Positions 29,447-37,900 of a stretch of 44,165 nucleotides of DNA are shown piece after piece. Numbering within the stretch: position 1 is the stretch's first letter; each line of letters starts with the position of its first letter. Source of the DNA: Spirochaetota bacterium. Its GTDB lineage: Bacteria > Spirochaetota > UBA4802 > UBA5550. The DNA is taken from the NCBI GenBank assembly GCA_017999915.1, contig JAGNKX010000027.1, forward strand, positions 1-44,165. The letters run 5' to 3'. Under the pieces are notes generated by a model. That model did not search any database and was not told where the DNA came from. It worked only from the letters and a program-made list of their open reading frames with translations. A program made the position numbers and the translations under genes.

Positions 29447-30259
29447 ATGATGGGAGATCCCATTACGTCGATCGATGACTCCCGCCTGGACGTTTTCCGC
29501 AACGTGCGGGACCGTGATTTAAGATCCGAGGGGATCATGATCGTCGAGGGACATCACTGCGTGGAGCGGTGCGTCGCCGCCGGTTTTGATGTCCTGTCCG
29601 TCCTCTGTGAAAACGGCCGCCATGCGGGGCCCCTGGCGGACCAAGTCCGCATTCCGGTCTACGGCGTCGGCCGCGATGTCATGGAGCGGGTCGCCGGGTA
29701 CGGGTTCCACCGGGGCATCATGGCCGCGGCCCGCAGGCCCGCGGCTCTTGCCGCCAATGAATTCATTTCAACGTTATCCGTGGAGTGTCCCCTCGGCATC
29801 GTCTGTGTCGACCGCTGCGCCTCAGGGGAAAACCTCGGCAGCATCGTGAGGAGCGCCCATGCCTTCGGGTACGGCGCGGTCATTGCATCGGCCTCGGCCG
29901 ATCCCTTCAGCAGGCGCGTGATCCGCGTATCCGCGGGGAGCGTCTTCTCGGTTCCGGTCATCGAGGCTGAGGACATGGGGGAAGTCGTCCAGGCGCTAAA
30001 GCGCGTCGCCCGGTGCCGGGTCTATGCGGCGGTCACGGACCCTTCAAGCGCCGCCTTTGACGCGTGCCCCGTGGCGCGGCGCCGGGCCGTGCTCCTGGGC
30101 AGCGAAGGGTCCGGCCTCTCCGGGGACCTCGCCGCCCTGTGCGACGAGGCGGTCCATGTGCCGATGAGCGGCGCCATCGACTCGCTCAACCTCGCCGTGG
30201 CCGCGGGGATCATATTGCAGAGATTCGGCATTAATTCCCCTGGTTCTCCGAGATGGTGA
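29447..30259 (+). CDS. SpoU-family (TrmH-type) RNA 2'-O-methyltransferase
   Basis: The 270-residue product has the three SpoU motifs: ENLGSIVRSAHAFG (motif 1), VLLGSEGSGLS (motif 2) and MSGAIDSLNLAVAAGIIL (motif 3). These build the knotted SAM site. An N-terminal domain of about 110 residues resembles the substrate-binding domain of TrmH/RlmB relatives. The rRNA or tRNA target is not predictable. The first two codons are both ATG (29447 and 29450). Its 3' end overlaps the convergent WG-repeat gene by 29 nt. Confidence 0.92.
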   Translation: MMGDPITSIDDSRLDVFRNVRDRDLRSEGIMIVEGHHCVERCVAAGFDVLSVLCENGRHAGPLADQVRIPVYGVGRDVMERVAGYGFHRGIMAAARRPAALAANEFISTLSVECPLGIVCVDRCASGENLGSIVRSAHAFGYGAVIASASADPFSRRVIRVSAGSVFSVPVIEAEDMGEVVQALKRVARCRVYAAVTDPSSAAFDACPVARRRAVLLGSEGSGLSGDLAALCDEAVHVPMSGAIDSLNLAVAAGIILQRFGINSPGSPRW

Positions 30260-32702
30260 ATTCCTTGGTGAAGACACCGTCGGTTGAGAACTGCTCATGG
30301 TTGCGGCAGCGGGCATAGACGCGGAATTTGAGCTTGTCCCCGGGCTTGTAGCGCAGGCCCGCCGTGCCGCAGTTCGATTTCGGGTTCCATTTCACCGTGT
30401 TCCCCTCCCGGGGGAAGTTGCTCCCTTTCTGCACGTTGTTCAGGAAGGGCTGGAACATCCAGAGCTCTCCCTCGCCGCTGGAACAGCGGCCTCCCCTGGC
30501 GCGGATCGTCACCGTGTCGTCGAGGTTGCAGGGGATTTCGTCGTCCCTCGGATCATAATCGAAGCCGGTGATCTTCTCTATGTAGGGATCCGGGTCCTTG
30601 ACCGTTACGTAGGTTATTTTTTCGGGACCGTCGGCGGAGACCTGTCCTGTCCTCGAGTTGCGCGCCATGACGAAGACAGTGGTTTTCACATTGTCGCCCT
30701 TCATGAATTTTTGCACCGGGTACTCGAATTCGTTGCTTCCGAGCCACTCGGTCTCCCGGGGGGCGTGGCCCTCGAATTCGAAGCGGAACCTGTACTGGGC
30801 CGGGAAGTCGACCTTTGACGCCGTGAGCTTCGCAGTGGCGCTCGCCGGCACGGGTTTCGACGTGTCTATGTTGATTTTCAGGTGGTCCGGCGGATAGCAT
30901 TTCTTGGCGCTGCCGCAGTCCTCCTGTGGATTGACCCAGAAGCCGGTCAATCCCACGGGGCCGCCGAATATGATCTGGGCCCAGGTCCAGGTGAGTTTCA
31001 CGCCGCATCCCCGGTTTTCAGCCTTCACGCGGGCGTTCTGCAACACGATGATGGCGGCCATGACATAGCAGATCGGTTCCAGGATCTCCGACATGAACCC
31101 GATAAAGTGCACCATGTGCTCGGTCAGTTCCAGCACGGTCTCGAGGATCCACATGTAATCCTCGCCGACGAAAAGGTAGAGGAACCATATGGAGGAATCC
31201 CACTTTGACTCGCCGTGGTCGCTTCCCCCGGAGCGCGGCTGTTTTTTCCGGCCCTCCGGGAGCAGCGTCTTTCCCTTCAGGGAGATGAGCACCCTCAGGT
31301 CGCCGCTTTTCACATAGGTGTCGAAGACGCCGGATTTTTCCACGAAGAACCAGAAGTCCCGGTCGTTCATGGCGGCGACGCCCCGCGAGAGCGCCTCGGT
31401 GAGGTGTCCATTGACAGTGGCTCCGGGTCCCTTCCGGGCAGCCGTCACCAGTGCCCGCATCATGCTCTCCTCGCCGGTGTTCGGGTGGCGGCCGGCGTAT
31501 TCGTCTGTTACGGCCATGGCGCCGTCAAAGTCACCGAGGCCGCAGAGGACCTGGGCCTTGAACAGGTAGGCCCTCCTGCCGTGGCTTTTGCCGATTTCAT
31601 CATCGAGAAGGTTCACTGCCTTTCGCAGATATTCCCGCGCCTGGTCAGCCTTACCCTGGTGCCTCAGCACCCCTGCCATGAGGATGTTCAGCTTTATCTC
31701 GTCGATACCCGACGGTCCCGATGTTGTGGGCCCTTTCGGCCGGACCGGGTCGTTCGTGTTTCTCACCGCGGTCCTGAGGTCGCGCAGGGCCCCTGTCCGC
31801 TTTCCGTCCCTATCGATGAAGCCGCCCCGGCCGTCCTCCACCACGAGGACCAGGTCGTCGTGAAAATCATCGGCGAAGGAGAACCGGTTCTGTACGGCAA
31901 AGCCGCCCTTGTGATCAAGGTAGCCCCACAGCCCGTCCTTCTTCACGGCCGCGCGGCCGCGGTAGAACGGGTCCGCCGCCTGGAACTGTGGATTGATCGC
32001 GTTTTTGCCGTTCTTGCCGATGTAGCCCCAGAGGGTGTCGATCTTCACCGGCGCCAGGCCCGTGTCCCTGTCGAAGTTGCCCGCTCCGTCGAATTGAGGC
32101 TGTATGATCATAGCGTTCCGCTGGTTGATATATCCCCAGGCATCGTCGCTCTTATCGGTCCGCACCGGCGCGAGACCTGCGCAGAAGTCCCCGGTATCGC
32201 GGTAGGTCGGGTTTATTTCTATCTTTCCCTTCTTTTGTATGAAGCCCCATCTGCCGCCGATCATCACGGCGGCGCGGCCCTCGGAAAAGGACCGGGCCCC
32301 TTCGAATTGCGGCGCAATGGCGAAGTCCCCGCGCCGGTTGATGAAGCCCCAGGATCCCTTCACCCGCACCGCTGCCAGGTCCTCGGAAAAGTCCCGGGCT
32401 TCGTCGAACCGGGGATTGATCTCCATGCGGCCGCTCCGGCTGATATATCCCCACATGGCGACAAGCTTCACCGCAGCCAGGCCCTGGGAAAAGGGGGATA
32501 CCAGGGCGAACTGCGGGGGCACCGCCACCCTGCCGTGACGGTCCGCGAATCCCCATTTTCCCTTAATTTCGTATCCAGCCAGTCCCTCGGAAAAGGTCAT
32601 GGCGTCCTGGATGTCATCGGTGGTGACTCTGGCCTGCCGGACGCATCCGGCTGCGATGATCAGAAAGAGAATGCCTGCATTACCGATCCATTTAATTATC
32701 AT
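30231..32702 (-). CDS. WG-repeat lipoprotein
   Basis: From the ATG at 32702 the 823-residue product has a lipoprotein signal (IIAAGC) and, over about 35-330, a run of seven or more WG (KWG) repeats of the form GxWGFIxxxGxxxIxPQFxxA. This repeat is common in spirochaetal surface proteins. A short TPR-like region follows (about 340-400; HQGKADQAREYLRKAVNLL). A hydrophobic segment near 530-590 contains predicted membrane helices, and the C-terminal part is beta-rich. GGAGG lies 8 nt before the ATG; a longer start at 32798 is rejected because it buries the signal. Probably cell-surface or periplasmic; function unknown. Confidence 0.82.
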   Translation of the reverse strand: MIIKWIGNAGILFLIIAAGCVRQARVTTDDIQDAMTFSEGLAGYEIKGKWGFADRHGRVAVPPQFALVSPFSQGLAAVKLVAMWGYISRSGRMEINPRFDEARDFSEDLAAVRVKGSWGFINRRGDFAIAPQFEGARSFSEGRAAVMIGGRWGFIQKKGKIEINPTYRDTGDFCAGLAPVRTDKSDDAWGYINQRNAMIIQPQFDGAGNFDRDTGLAPVKIDTLWGYIGKNGKNAINPQFQAADPFYRGRAAVKKDGLWGYLDHKGGFAVQNRFSFADDFHDDLVLVVEDGRGGFIDRDGKRTGALRDLRTAVRNTNDPVRPKGPTTSGPSGIDEIKLNILMAGVLRHQGKADQAREYLRKAVNLLDDEIGKSHGRRAYLFKAQVLCGLGDFDGAMAVTDEYAGRHPNTGEESMMRALVTAARKGPGATVNGHLTEALSRGVAAMNDRDFWFFVEKSGVFDTYVKSGDLRVLISLKGKTLLPEGRKKQPRSGGSDHGESKWDSSIWFLYLFVGEDYMWILETVLELTEHMVHFIGFMSEILEPICYVMAAIIVLQNARVKAENRGCGVKLTWTWAQIIFGGPVGLTGFWVNPQEDCGSAKKCYPPDHLKINIDTSKPVPASATAKLTASKVDFPAQYRFRFEFEGHAPRETEWLGSNEFEYPVQKFMKGDNVKTTVFVMARNSRTGQVSADGPEKITYVTVKDPDPYIEKITGFDYDPRDDEIPCNLDDTVTIRARGGRCSSGEGELWMFQPFLNNVQKGSNFPREGNTVKWNPKSNCGTAGLRYKPGDKLKFRVYARCRNHEQFSTDGVFTKEFTISENQGN

Positions 32703-33037
32703 CGAAAAACCTCCCTGGGTATCGCGGCTGCGGCACGGGCGTATATGATATAGTCGATGGACAGATCTTTCCATCGACTGATACTCAATGGCTGTCATGG
32801 TCGCCCGTAACAGTATACATAACGTACCATACCCCGGCGGAATGGTAAAGTGGAGGGAGTCCTTTATTGTGGTAGGATTGGAAACGAATCACCTGTCGGG
32901 TTTTGTCTTACATGAGGAAGCTGACTCTCACCGCTGAATCATTTTTTGTATTGACGGGCGGTTCGATGGCACTACAATGAAGACGAGGATTCGAGACAGC
33001 GCTTTCATTGCGACATATTCCTTCGAGGTATCGATAC

Positions 33038-36000
33038 GTGGAACCAGTCATCGCCAGCAGCCTCTGCCGCTTCCGCATCACCGACGAGCACCTTATTACC
33101 GACAAAATAGTCAAGGAGCATATAGCCAGGGCCTTTGCGGAAAACCGCTGCTACGAGTTTTACCTCGACCGCGACGTGGTGGGGAGCATCCGCGCCGGGG
33201 AGCCCGTGGAGCTGTACCGGGAGCGCTTCATCGACATGCGCAACAGCGCCTTCGATATCGTCTCGAAGGGGGACCAGACCGTGCGCGGACGGCTCATGAG
33301 CGACATCCGTCTCTCATCGCGGCTCATCACTTCCTTCGTCTTCGCGCACCGGGCGACGGCCGAGGCGGACTTTGATACCATCATGGCGCGGCGCTTCGTC
33401 ATCGTGAAGGAATTGCCGGGCGTTCCCACCATATTCCATATCTCCCCCGAGACCACGGTGATATCCCACGTGGGGCAGGGGCCGCCCTGGACCGAAATCC
33501 CAACCATTTACCTGGGCCTGAAAATCTTCGACGCCCTCACGGCGGAGCAGAAGCGCGGCGCCGGAGTGAAGCTCTTCGGCGCCTTCAAGCTCCTCCTCAT
33601 GATCGAGGAGCGGGCCATCCAGACCGGTTACAACCACTCGGTGGTATATCCGCCGGCGGTGTCCCGCTCCCTGAATTTCCTGGTGGACGAGACCCTGCGG
33701 AATGCCCAGCAGTTCGAGATCGAGGAGGCCCCGGGGGAGGTCGTCGAGAAGCGGGTCCGGAAGTTCAGCGAGGCGAGCCGGGCCAAGTACCTGCGCGAGC
33801 TGGACGCCCGGGTTCACGGCGACATATTGAACTTCCACTACGAGCGGAACCTGGAGGCGGTGAAGTCCCTGGAGCGCCTGGCCCGCCGATACAAGATGGC
33901 CGGAGATGCCGCCTCCCTCCGCGAGATCGTGCGGCTCCTGGTGGCGGCGTCGGGCCACGACATCCACGAAATCAGGAACAGGGCGAACATCGTCCTGGAG
34001 AGGATATTCGCGCCCAAGGAGTTCGACGCGCCCCTGGCCACGCGCTTTGCCAATGTCCCGGTGGGACAGGCCTACCGCTTCACCTTTGAAATACCGGGCG
34101 CCCCGGTCATGTACCACCTGCGGATCTACCGGAACAGCACCGGCGAGAATATCTTCCTCGAGAAGGACATCGATTGTATCGAGATACCCCTGGTCCACGA
34201 GGGCGGGGAGCAGTACGCGGCGGAATACATCTTTGACCGGTACGGTCATTATGATTTTACCGTGATTTTGAAGAAGAGAAAGAACGCCGCCTGGGTGACC
34301 CTGCCGGGCCTGTCGGGAAGGATCAACGCCATGCCGGACATCAGGGGCGAGATCATCCTCGAAATTTTTGCGGATATCCACGGCCATACCAGGACCTACT
34401 GGACCGACGGGAACGGCCACCCGGGCCTGGTCTACAACGAGAACGGCGAGGTGATACGCCTGGGCAGGTTCGCCGACGTCACGGCGCACCTGGAGGACAT
34501 CAAGAAGACGTACAGCGTGACCACGATCTACCTTCTGGGTGTGCAGAAGCGGGGGCGCAACCACGATGACTGGGCCCCGAACGCCACATCGCCGTCGCCC
34601 TTCTCGCCCATGAGCCTGGTCGACATCGAGCCGGCCCTGGGCGGTGAAGAGGAGCTGAAGGAGCTCATCGGGAAATGCCACCGCATGGATATCAAGGTCA
34701 TCGTGGATATCATCCCCCACATCAATCGCTCCAGCGATCACCTGTCCGACGCCTTCGCGGTCAGGACCTACGACGACGGCGGGAACCTGGTGGTGCGCGC
34801 CTCCACGGACGGGCGCTACGGCTCCTGGAACGACGGCAAGCTGCTGAATTACCGCATGTTCGAGGTGTGGGAGTGGCTCTCGGATTCCATCACCTCCCTT
34901 GTCGAGCGGTTCGATATAGACGGGATACGGTTCGACTCGGCCCACGCCGTCCCCATCATGATGAAGAAGAACAACTTCCCCTTCGTGTTCGAGCGGAAGC
35001 GGGAGCTCGCGGAGATGGTGGAGGGGACCATCATCGTCAACGACCGCGAGGACGACCATTACGTCACGACCGGGTACTACGACTCCGCCTGCCGGGACCT
35101 CATCGCCGTGCCGCTCCATTTCTTCCTCATGCTGAACGTGGAGAAGAAGATGAGGCAGCTGAAGAAAGAGTTCTTCATCAACGTGGCGGAATGCTACTGG
35201 GGCCACGAGCGCTTCCTCACCCGCACGGGCCTCATTCCGTACAACTCCTCGCTCTTCAAGATCTGCGAGAACATCATCCACGGGAAGACGGACGTGCGCG
35301 AGATATACCATATCTACGACAGCTACTTCCCATCCGCCCTCCCGGAGGGGACTGAGATGCTGGGTATCCTGGGAAACCACGACGAGCGCAGGGCCCTCAA
35401 CACCTTCGGGCACCGGGGCCTCCGCGCCGCCGTGGGACTCACCTGCTTCATGAGCAGCGCCATCATGGACTACGAGGGGAGCGCCGAGGGCGAGGGATGG
35501 AAGGTCTACCTGGACAACATCTACGTCAACTGGAACCAGTTCGAGTACGCGGCGCACCGGAGCCTGCAGCCCTTCTACGGCGAGTGGTACAGGTTCCACC
35601 GCGAGGAGCGGGGAAAGGGATATCTCATCTGGGCCAACAACACCATGGTGGCGGCCGCGGCGAAGTTCGTGGGAGAGGAGATCTGGCTCGGTGTGTTCAA
35701 TTTCGCCGACGCGAACCAGAACGCATCCCTCCAGTTCGACAGCCCGGTCCTGCCGATACCGCGGGACCGGTGCTACCGCCTGAGCGATCCCCTCTACTCG
35801 AACCTGACGGGCCATTATAACTACTACACGGGACGGGAGCTCGCCATATCACACGTTAACACCGTGGTCTCCTTCACCGAGCGGGTGAAGCTCCTGAGGC
35901 TGGAACCGGTTGACCCGGCCGAATACTACCACGACTTCCTGAGGGATTCCTTCTTCAGGCTCTGCCAGATGTCCAATGTGCAGCAGATACAGAGCAATTT

Positions 36001-37900
36001 CGCCTATGAGGAAATGGCGAAGAATTGCGGGACCTACGAGGCAATCACCGCCTTCATCAAGGAGCACCTGGTGCCGGTGTTTTTCAAAGAACACCGCGAT
36101 ATGATCGACCTGGGCCTGAAAAGAGGGGCCTTCTACCTGGTGAGGAGCGGCATCCTCAACGGCCGTACCGCCCTTGAGTACGCCCGGAAGATGTCCCTGG
36201 ACACGGACCTGGCCCTGGCCGCCATCGGCAGGGACCTGATCGAGCACAACCGGCGGGGCGCCCTGGTCTTCATGTCCGCCGAGGCGGAGCCCTTCTCCAA
36301 GAGCGGCGGCCTCGCAAACGTCGTGTACGAATTGCCCCGGGAGCTGGTGAAGCTCGGCGAGGAGGTCTTCGTCATATCGGGCTACTACAGGCACGGCGAC
36401 GACAAGTCGGTGCGGAAGATGCAGGATGCCGCGAAAAAGTACAACCTGACCTACACCGGCGTTAACGTCTCCTTCAAGATCATGGGGGACGATTACCAGG
36501 TGGGCGTGCACCACGCCGATGTGGAGGGGATCCACTACTACCTCCTGGACCATCACGAGTTTTTCGACGGCCTCTACTGGGGGGTCACGTCGGTCGAGAA
36601 GATCAGGCGCCGGGTGGCCTTCTCCCGGGCCTGTGTCGAGGTGATCACCGCCTTCAACCTGAACCCGAGCTATACCTTCACCAACGACGCCTACGCCGGG
36701 ATCTTCAACGGCATCGTCAAGTGCGACCACTTTTACCTGAACAGTCCGGCCTTCGGGAGAAACACCTTCCTGCATATCGTCCACAACGGGGGGTGGCAGT
36801 ACTTCGACGCCTACCACCGGATGGAGAACGGCTTTGACCTGTTCAACCTCTTCAACCTTCCCACGTGGAACGCCGGGGACTTCTGCGATCCCGTGTACCC
36901 GGAGCGGCTCAACTGCATGGCCGCGGGAATACGCTTCGCGGACCGCGTCATCACCGTGAGCCCGTCGTACGCGCGGCAGATCGAGTACGCCTGCGACGGC
37001 CTGGAGCGGATTTTAAAAAACGTCATCGGCATCAGCAACGCCATCGGCAGCGACTTCAAGGTCAACCTGATCAAGAGATTCGAGGCTTCGCGCTTCGTTG
37101 CCGGGGCGTACCCGCTCTTCGCGGAGCATGTCAAGTCGGACGACGCCCTCCGCGCCAAGCTCGAGGAGAGGTATCCGGAGCTCCTCGGGGGCCAGAACGG
37201 CGTCGAGGCGGTCGCCGACAAATCGCGGCAAGCCATGCTGATGCGCCTGCGCAACAAGCTCTACCTCCAGTGCGCCCGGGGGCTGAAGGTGGACCCGGAC
37301 ATTGTGCTCTTTTCCTATATACACCGCGTATCGGAGCAGAAAGGGTACCAGCTCCTCCTTGAGGCATCAGAGGGGATATTCAAGAACCTGAAGTTCCAGG
37401 GCGTCATCGGCGGCGCTGTGTCTTCCGGCGACCGGCGGGGCGAGGAGATAGCCCACGGTCTCTACCTCCTGGGGCAGTATTATCCCGACATGGTGAACGT
37501 CTCCCTCGGCTTCCAGGATATAACGGCGCCCCTGCTGGCGTCGGACCTCTTCCTCATGCCGTCGATGCACGAGCCGGGGGGAATATCGCAGCTCGAGGCC
37601 TTTGCCGCGGGAAACCTGGTGGTGGCCCGGGCCACCGGCGGTCTCCGGGACACGGTCTTCCCCGTCCAGGTGCAGGGCAACGAGATCAAGGGGAACGGCT
37701 TTCTCTTTACCGACTTCAATTCATGGGCCTTTTACGACGCCATGGACCGGGCACTCCAGTTCTTCAGGCAGAACAGCGAAGATGTGATCCACCGGGTCCG
37801 AACGAACGCGGAAAGGTCCGTCTACTACTGGGACCGGCCGGCCAGGGAATACGTTGAAACCATATACACGGTCACGGAAACCATCAGGGTGCTTGAATGA
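33038..37900 (+). CDS. Fusion of GH13 alpha-amylase-type domain and GT5 glycogen-synthase-type domain
   Basis: The 1620-residue product has four parts: an unrecognised helical region (about 1-300), a beta-sandwich-like region (about 330-430), a GH13 domain (about 440-960) and a GT5 domain (about 1075-1610). GH13 motifs: VDIIPHIN (region I), GIRFDSAH with nucleophile Asp633 (II), NDRED with Glu671 as possible acid/base (III), and GNHDERR with Asp782 (IV). GT5 motifs: SKSGGLANV with Lys1088 (ADP-glucose site) and MHEPGGISQLEAF with Glu1512. The same order of activities occurs in fungal alpha-1,3-glucan synthases. Start: GTG at 33038 with GAGG 9 nt upstream; TTG at 33008 is an alternative. No signal peptide, so cytoplasmic. 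Confidence 0.88.
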   Translation: MEPVIASSLCRFRITDEHLITDKIVKEHIARAFAENRCYEFYLDRDVVGSIRAGEPVELYRERFIDMRNSAFDIVSKGDQTVRGRLMSDIRLSSRLITSFVFAHRATAEADFDTIMARRFVIVKELPGVPTIFHISPETTVISHVGQGPPWTEIPTIYLGLKIFDALTAEQKRGAGVKLFGAFKLLLMIEERAIQTGYNHSVVYPPAVSRSLNFLVDETLRNAQQFEIEEAPGEVVEKRVRKFSEASRAKYLRELDARVHGDILNFHYERNLEAVKSLERLARRYKMAGDAASLREIVRLLVAASGHDIHEIRNRANIVLERIFAPKEFDAPLATRFANVPVGQAYRFTFEIPGAPVMYHLRIYRNSTGENIFLEKDIDCIEIPLVHEGGEQYAAEYIFDRYGHYDFTVILKKRKNAAWVTLPGLSGRINAMPDIRGEIILEIFADIHGHTRTYWTDGNGHPGLVYNENGEVIRLGRFADVTAHLEDIKKTYSVTTIYLLGVQKRGRNHDDWAPNATSPSPFSPMSLVDIEPALGGEEELKELIGKCHRMDIKVIVDIIPHINRSSDHLSDAFAVRTYDDGGNLVVRASTDGRYGSWNDGKLLNYRMFEVWEWLSDSITSLVERFDIDGIRFDSAHAVPIMMKKNNFPFVFERKRELAEMVEGTIIVNDREDDHYVTTGYYDSACRDLIAVPLHFFLMLNVEKKMRQLKKEFFINVAECYWGHERFLTRTGLIPYNSSLFKICENIIHGKTDVREIYHIYDSYFPSALPEGTEMLGILGNHDERRALNTFGHRGLRAAVGLTCFMSSAIMDYEGSAEGEGWKVYLDNIYVNWNQFEYAAHRSLQPFYGEWYRFHREERGKGYLIWANNTMVAAAAKFVGEEIWLGVFNFADANQNASLQFDSPVLPIPRDRCYRLSDPLYSNLTGHYNYYTGRELAISHVNTVVSFTERVKLLRLEPVDPAEYYHDFLRDSFFRLCQMSNVQQIQSNFAYEEMAKNCGTYEAITAFIKEHLVPVFFKEHRDMIDLGLKRGAFYLVRSGILNGRTALEYARKMSLDTDLALAAIGRDLIEHNRRGALVFMSAEAEPFSKSGGLANVVYELPRELVKLGEEVFVISGYYRHGDDKSVRKMQDAAKKYNLTYTGVNVSFKIMGDDYQVGVHHADVEGIHYYLLDHHEFFDGLYWGVTSVEKIRRRVAFSRACVEVITAFNLNPSYTFTNDAYAGIFNGIVKCDHFYLNSPAFGRNTFLHIVHNGGWQYFDAYHRMENGFDLFNLFNLPTWNAGDFCDPVYPERLNCMAAGIRFADRVITVSPSYARQIEYACDGLERILKNVIGISNAIGSDFKVNLIKRFEASRFVAGAYPLFAEHVKSDDALRAKLEERYPELLGGQNGVEAVADKSRQAMLMRLRNKLYLQCARGLKVDPDIVLFSYIHRVSEQKGYQLLLEASEGIFKNLKFQGVIGGAVSSGDRRGEEIAHGLYLLGQYYPDMVNVSLGFQDITAPLLASDLFLMPSMHEPGGISQLEAFAAGNLVVARATGGLRDTVFPVQVQGNEIKGNGFLFTDFNSWAFYDAMDRALQFFRQNSEDVIHRVRTNAERSVYYWDRPAREYVETIYTVTETIRVLE

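Follow-up and report, generated by a model that had tools for sequence, protein, structure and literature searches.

A conserved GH13–GT5 fusion protein of spirochaetes, a candidate two-activity alpha-glucan synthase

A single bacterial protein joins a GH13 (alpha-amylase-type) domain to a GT5 (glycogen-synthase-type) domain, an architecture that is real, conserved and apparently undescribed, drawn from known enzyme families. Its gene lies in the window, by which we mean the whole stretch of DNA analysed (44,165 nucleotides, contig JAGNKX010000027.1 of a Spirochaetota bacterium). The original prediction, that the protein may both synthesise an alpha-glucan and trim or transfer it within a single polypeptide, remains the best reading; in the form that we favour, and to which we give an even chance, the fusion is a soluble cytoplasmic alpha-glucan synthase with two activities, its GH13 domain branching or transferring the chain.

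Results

Architecture of the fusion protein

The gene occupies one plus-strand frame spanning 33008/33038–37900, with a GAGG about 9 bases upstream of the GTG start at 33038 and a stop codon at 37898–37900 (Table 1). Pfam recognised both enzyme domains in this single frame (Alpha-amylase, 2.2e-9; Glyco_transf_5, 2.7e-36, over residues 1087–1337 as numbered from a TTG at 33008; Glycos_transf_1, 4e-13), bearing out the predicted fusion in one 1620-residue protein, and the order is N-terminal region, beta-sandwich, GH13 barrel, helical linker and GT5, the last forming the C-terminal end. Structure prediction had been proposed earlier as a check, and an AlphaFold model with 23 homologues as input gave a GH13 barrel behind the beta-sandwich and a GT-B fold for GT5, several barrel loops having pLDDT below 50. 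The long N-terminal part had been called unrecognised, and residues 1–330 indeed returned no convincing Pfam or PDB match at the sequence level. Nor was a membrane helix indicated, again as predicted, the maximum Kyte–Doolittle value over 19 residues being just 1.29.

Table 1. Features of the fusion gene and its product (positions are those of the window).
Feature	Position	Strand	Basis or remarks
Complete fusion gene	33038..37900	+	GTG start, 1620 aa; open frame, conserved full-length homologues, GAGG upstream
N-terminal region, residues 1–330, without recognised family	33038..34027	+	AlphaFold mostly confident; found only in the fusion
Beta-sandwich, residues 331–432, abutting the barrel	34028..34333	+	AlphaFold strands; within range 335–957 aligned to solved amylases
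GH13 barrel and C-terminal beta domain, residues 433–960	34334..35917	+	Pfam PF00128, PDB profile, fold match Z 24
Region I Asp557 (DIIPHIN; N-H pair of DxxxNH missing)	34706..34708	+	Invariant, 31 sequences
Region II predicted nucleophile Asp633 (GIRFD)	34934..34936	+	Invariant, 31 sequences
Region III predicted acid/base Glu718 (AECYW)	35189..35191	+	Invariant, 31 sequences
Region IV predicted transition-state Asp782 (NHD)	35381..35383	+	Invariant, 31 sequences
Helical linker, residues 961–1070	35918..36247	+	AlphaFold helices
GT5 glycogen-synthase-type domain, residues 1071–1620	36248..37897	+	Pfam, NCBIfam glgA 213 bits (below cut-off), PDB profile, fold
Donor-site Lys1088 (KSGG)	36299..36301	+	Invariant, 31 sequences
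Glu1512 of EPGG, first Glu of E-x7-E	37571..37573	+	Invariant, 31 sequences

Conservation and distribution

With its first 434 residues as query, the fusion was found in 43 of the 46 genomes of the order, more than chance could account for by a wide margin, and in 48 of the 393 genomes sampled from the phylum, throughout which the N-terminal region was confined to the fusion; that close relatives might carry the domains separately, a possibility raised earlier, was thus not borne out. A scan of 84,980 species yielded 34 fusion loci, all titled as spirochaetes bar one ‘uncultured bacterium’ and one contig labelled Candidatus Stahlbacteria. The last (L041; SOIB01000142.1) is 5.7 kb long and carries a 62% identical fusion, and it is likelier to be a misbinned spirochaete contig than a case of transfer. 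Identity to the window protein is 50–88% among the 31 full-length copies, and the Marispirochaeta copy (L063) is 51% identical. Frames in relatives run to ~1610–1740 residues, save at contig ends or where the frame is split, and an origin by artefact or frameshift was ruled out by full-length frames (~1614–1738 residues) in dozens of independent assemblies. Moreover, dN/dS was ~0.1 for most pairs in each of the N-terminal region, GH13 and GT5, and 0.2–0.3 for L066, the most divergent of the pairs compared, values that point to purifying selection on every part of the fusion.

A profile of the GH13 part, searched across the phylum, scored 970–1067 bits with uncut fused copies and 47 with the best unfused protein, and revealed no separate relatives of this part. 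That the parts are found only together, and that the GT5 lies far from the order's separate GlgA, suggests that the fusion forms a long-established lineage of its own rather than a recent join of local genes. Downstream of the fusion gene, lptE and holA occur in 20 of the 34 loci; these are housekeeping neighbours and say little about function. The divergent neighbour in the window (30231–32798, minus strand) encodes 855 residues that include seven or more WG repeats and matches to TPR, and it is not conserved beside the fusion at other loci.

The GT5 domain

Six GT5 residues, K1088 (KSGG), H1249, R1430, K1435, E1512 and E1520, are invariant across 31 sequences, and this retention of all catalytic residues makes it very likely that the domain elongates an alpha-1,4 chain. 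The lysine and the EPGG motif of the original prediction accordingly stand; the ADP-glucose donor that it attached to the lysine is weakened by the lack of a GlgC over cut-off. The fusion scored 125.9 bits with Glyco_transf_5 (Pfam cut-off 22.7) and 213.5 bits with NCBIfam GlgA (TIGR02095; cut-off 328.45), falling below every NCBIfam GlgA cut-off, so that we do not file it as GlgA itself. Foldseek matched the domain to cyanobacterial granule-bound starch synthase (E 8e-25) and E. coli glycogen synthase (1e-24), and the GT-B fold and the KxGG, HN, RxxxQKG and EPGG motifs are common to it and to the GT5 glycogen and starch synthases (GlgA, GBSS, SSIV). Identity to the order's own separate GlgA is, however, 24–28%, and these proteins have EPCG-x4-Y/I at the acceptor side where the fusion, which is additionally joined to GH13, has EPGG-x4-E.

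The GH13 domain

Membership of GH13 follows from the barrel fold and the three catalytic carboxylates (D633, E718, D782), which like R631 show no variation in 31 full-length homologues. The misalignment of catalytic residues envisaged beforehand was therefore not encountered, and the domain is very likely to be catalytically competent. Of the four conserved regions originally claimed, II–IV are present, but region I departs from the canonical DxxxNH, retaining only its Asp.

VIA aligned the domain with solved amylases, with a top Z of 24 (rmsd 3.5 over 399 residues), and the fold searches (Foldseek, VIA), taken together, lean to amylase, neopullulanase and GlgE types. A PDB profile search instead placed branching enzymes first, weakly and with similarity over ~110 residues, while GlgB and GlgX tied in profile–profile comparison. 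Because PDB profile, Foldseek, VIA-align and profile–profile results disagree or tie, no single closest subfamily was assigned, and neither sequence nor fold suffices to assign the specificity of GH13. The branching enzymes GlgB (GH13_9) and the eukaryotic type (GH13_8), the best PDB profile hits, share with the fusion the barrel and an NYxxxEVxxxL-like stretch, but regions I and IV differ, there is no CBM48 match and no match at subfamily level, and the GlgB profile TIGR01515 gave 27 bits (cut-off 463.95). GlgE maltosyltransferase (GH13_3) is among the best Foldseek matches but not among the profile matches listed.

Glucan enzymes in the genome and the order

The window's genome encodes no GT5 besides that of the fusion; its assembly comprises 29 contigs at 99% completeness, and in a draft a missing gene counts for less as evidence than one that is present. 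Neither GT3 nor GH57 was found there, nor GlgC over cut-off, and its GH13 complement, apart from the fusion, comprises TreS, two GlgX and a protein resembling alpha-glucosidases, so that the genome is without GlgB and GlgE. It has glycogen phosphorylase at full score (1223 bits), accompanied by another alpha-glucan phosphorylase.

Loss of separate glgA and glgB had been put forward for survey. The glgB half held, as no genome of the 46 in the order has GlgB over cut-off, an observation new here; separate GlgA, by contrast, is present in 24 of these genomes, and most of its absences fall within the window's own family, where 2 of 20 genomes have it. Few genomes anywhere in the phylum have GlgB (25 of 393), so its absence is only weakly tied to the fusion (anticorrelation across the phylum, Fisher P = 0.057), and we place no weight on this association. 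The fusion occurs without separate GlgA in 19 genomes and without both GH57 and GlgB in 26. Within the order, strong GH57 matches are restricted to families f2, f3, f5 and f7, in agreement with a survey (PMC6686919) in which some spirochaetes are reported to have a branching enzyme of family GH57, and GlgC to families f2, f3, f6 and f7.

No GalU over cut-off was found in the order (the GalU type alone being covered among UDP-glucose pyrophosphorylases), and with neither GlgC nor GalU over cut-off no source of a nucleotide sugar for GT5 was pinpointed. Most genomes of the order, those lacking GlgC included, encode proteins of ~400 residues that resemble GlgC or GlgD. The window's genome encodes one such GlgD-like protein on contig C1 (L128:221–1492, plus strand; 424 residues, 91 bits to glgD, below cut-off), and since the usual nucleotide-binding loop is missing from this order-wide kind of protein, it was rejected as a replacement for GlgC.

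Two genomes of a genus in the window's family (G180 and G201, genus g9) are without the fusion and without any GT5, though G180 still has a full-score glycogen phosphorylase. Another relative lacking the GH13–GT5 fusion (G127) has a different fusion of 1429 residues (L131:1128–5414, minus strand), which combines GT3-type Glycogen_syn (341 bits), DUF3417 and an alpha-glucan phosphorylase domain, and lies beside one GH57 and another glycosyltransferase.

Discussion

In the preferred reading, the GT5 domain would extend alpha-1,4 chains with glucose drawn from a nucleotide sugar, its GH13 partner in the same polypeptide would cut and transfer segments of the growing chain, by branching or chain transfer, and the product would be degraded by GlgP and GlgX; in the window's family, the fusion would replace the missing GlgA and GlgB. 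By elimination, it is the sole known candidate for glucan elongation and branching in the window's genome, and branching or transfer is the simplest assignment for GH13, since that genome has two GlgX debranching enzymes and no recognisable branching enzyme. We infer that both domains are active and that GH13 transfers rather than hydrolyses and forms alpha-1,6 branches, and any identity given to the donor has the same footing. A bolder version, which we consider unlikely, makes the soluble protein a self-contained glycogen factory that would start, elongate and branch an alpha-glucan, with the N-terminal region acting as a scaffold or as the site of priming and with a donor not made by GlgC, as the sole route in a family mostly without GlgA and wholly without GlgB and GlgC. 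That the fusion simply replaces GlgA and GlgB is called into question chiefly by families f2, f3 and f7, which have it alongside separate GlgA, GH57 and usually GlgC, and the fusion's product may for this reason differ from ordinary glycogen.

The GH13 domain could alternatively be a trimming hydrolase or a disproportionating enzyme that supplies primers or sets chain length beside a true GT5 synthase, branching being absent or due to an unrecognised enzyme. This is possible, if somewhat doubtful: the fold neighbours with top Z are hydrolases, regions III and IV (AECYW, NHDE) are amylase-like, and sequence and fold leave the specificity of GH13 free; yet the two GlgX of the same genome suggest a branched glucan, and a hydrolase joined to a synthase would undo part of the latter's work unless kept under tight control. 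The coexistence of the fusion with a canonical GlgA–GlgC–GH57 set in f2, f3 and f7, together with lptE as downstream neighbour, might instead speak for a different polymer or for a regulatory or envelope role; we find this improbable, because the GT5 residues match alpha-1,4-glucan synthases, lptE–holA is housekeeping, and GlgP and GlgX are retained in the window's genome. Very improbable, in our judgement, is a GlgE-like scheme in which GT5 makes maltosyl-phosphate or a short oligosaccharide that GH13 polymerises, as GlgE does with maltose 1-phosphate. GlgE structures do take Foldseek ranks 2, 3, 7 and 8, and the missing N-H pair of region I and the H-x-x-P that follows region II are reminiscent of GlgE, but GlgE is missing from the sequence-profile matches listed and from the VIA top 50.

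Should the synthase reading with a branching or chain-transferring GH13 be right, storage-glucan elongation and branching or chain transfer would be coupled in one polypeptide, where described bacterial pathways use separate enzymes. It would explain glucan synthesis in bacteria that have glycogen-degrading enzymes but lack GlgA, GlgB and GlgC, would bring to the field a GH13 group not yet assigned and a domain not yet characterised, and might serve engineering as a one-gene glucan synthase. We found no published description of a spirochaete GH13–GT5 fusion in the open-access literature, most subscription journals being outside the scope of the search.

The original prediction likened the protein to fungal alpha-1,3-glucan synthases. 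Ags1 has its GH13-like domain outside the cell and its synthase inside, and includes a signal peptide, a membrane span and a multipass domain (PMC5753165). The likeness survives in the shared order of GH13 then GT5 and fails in the membrane layout (maximum hydropathy as above), as the fusion lacks the fungal hallmarks (a signal peptide, a transmembrane span, a multipass part at the C-terminus), ends with GT5 and carries an extra N-terminal region. It is scarcely credible that the protein is a bacterial relative of the fungal enzyme making alpha-1,3-glucan: the identical domain order would fit, but there is no membrane segment or multipass domain, some 330 residues are added at the N-terminus, and homologues are essentially limited to spirochaetes. 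The likeness is limited to domain order, and nothing in this analysis, which compared the fungal enzyme by its described layout, establishes shared descent. Nearer in kind are the bacterial glucan-enzyme fusions covered in a 2024 review, TreS with maltokinase and GlgB with MalQ (PMC11046441), each of which, as here, places two alpha-glucan enzymes in one polypeptide; neither, however, couples a nucleotide-sugar glucan synthase to GH13, as the spirochaete fusion does.
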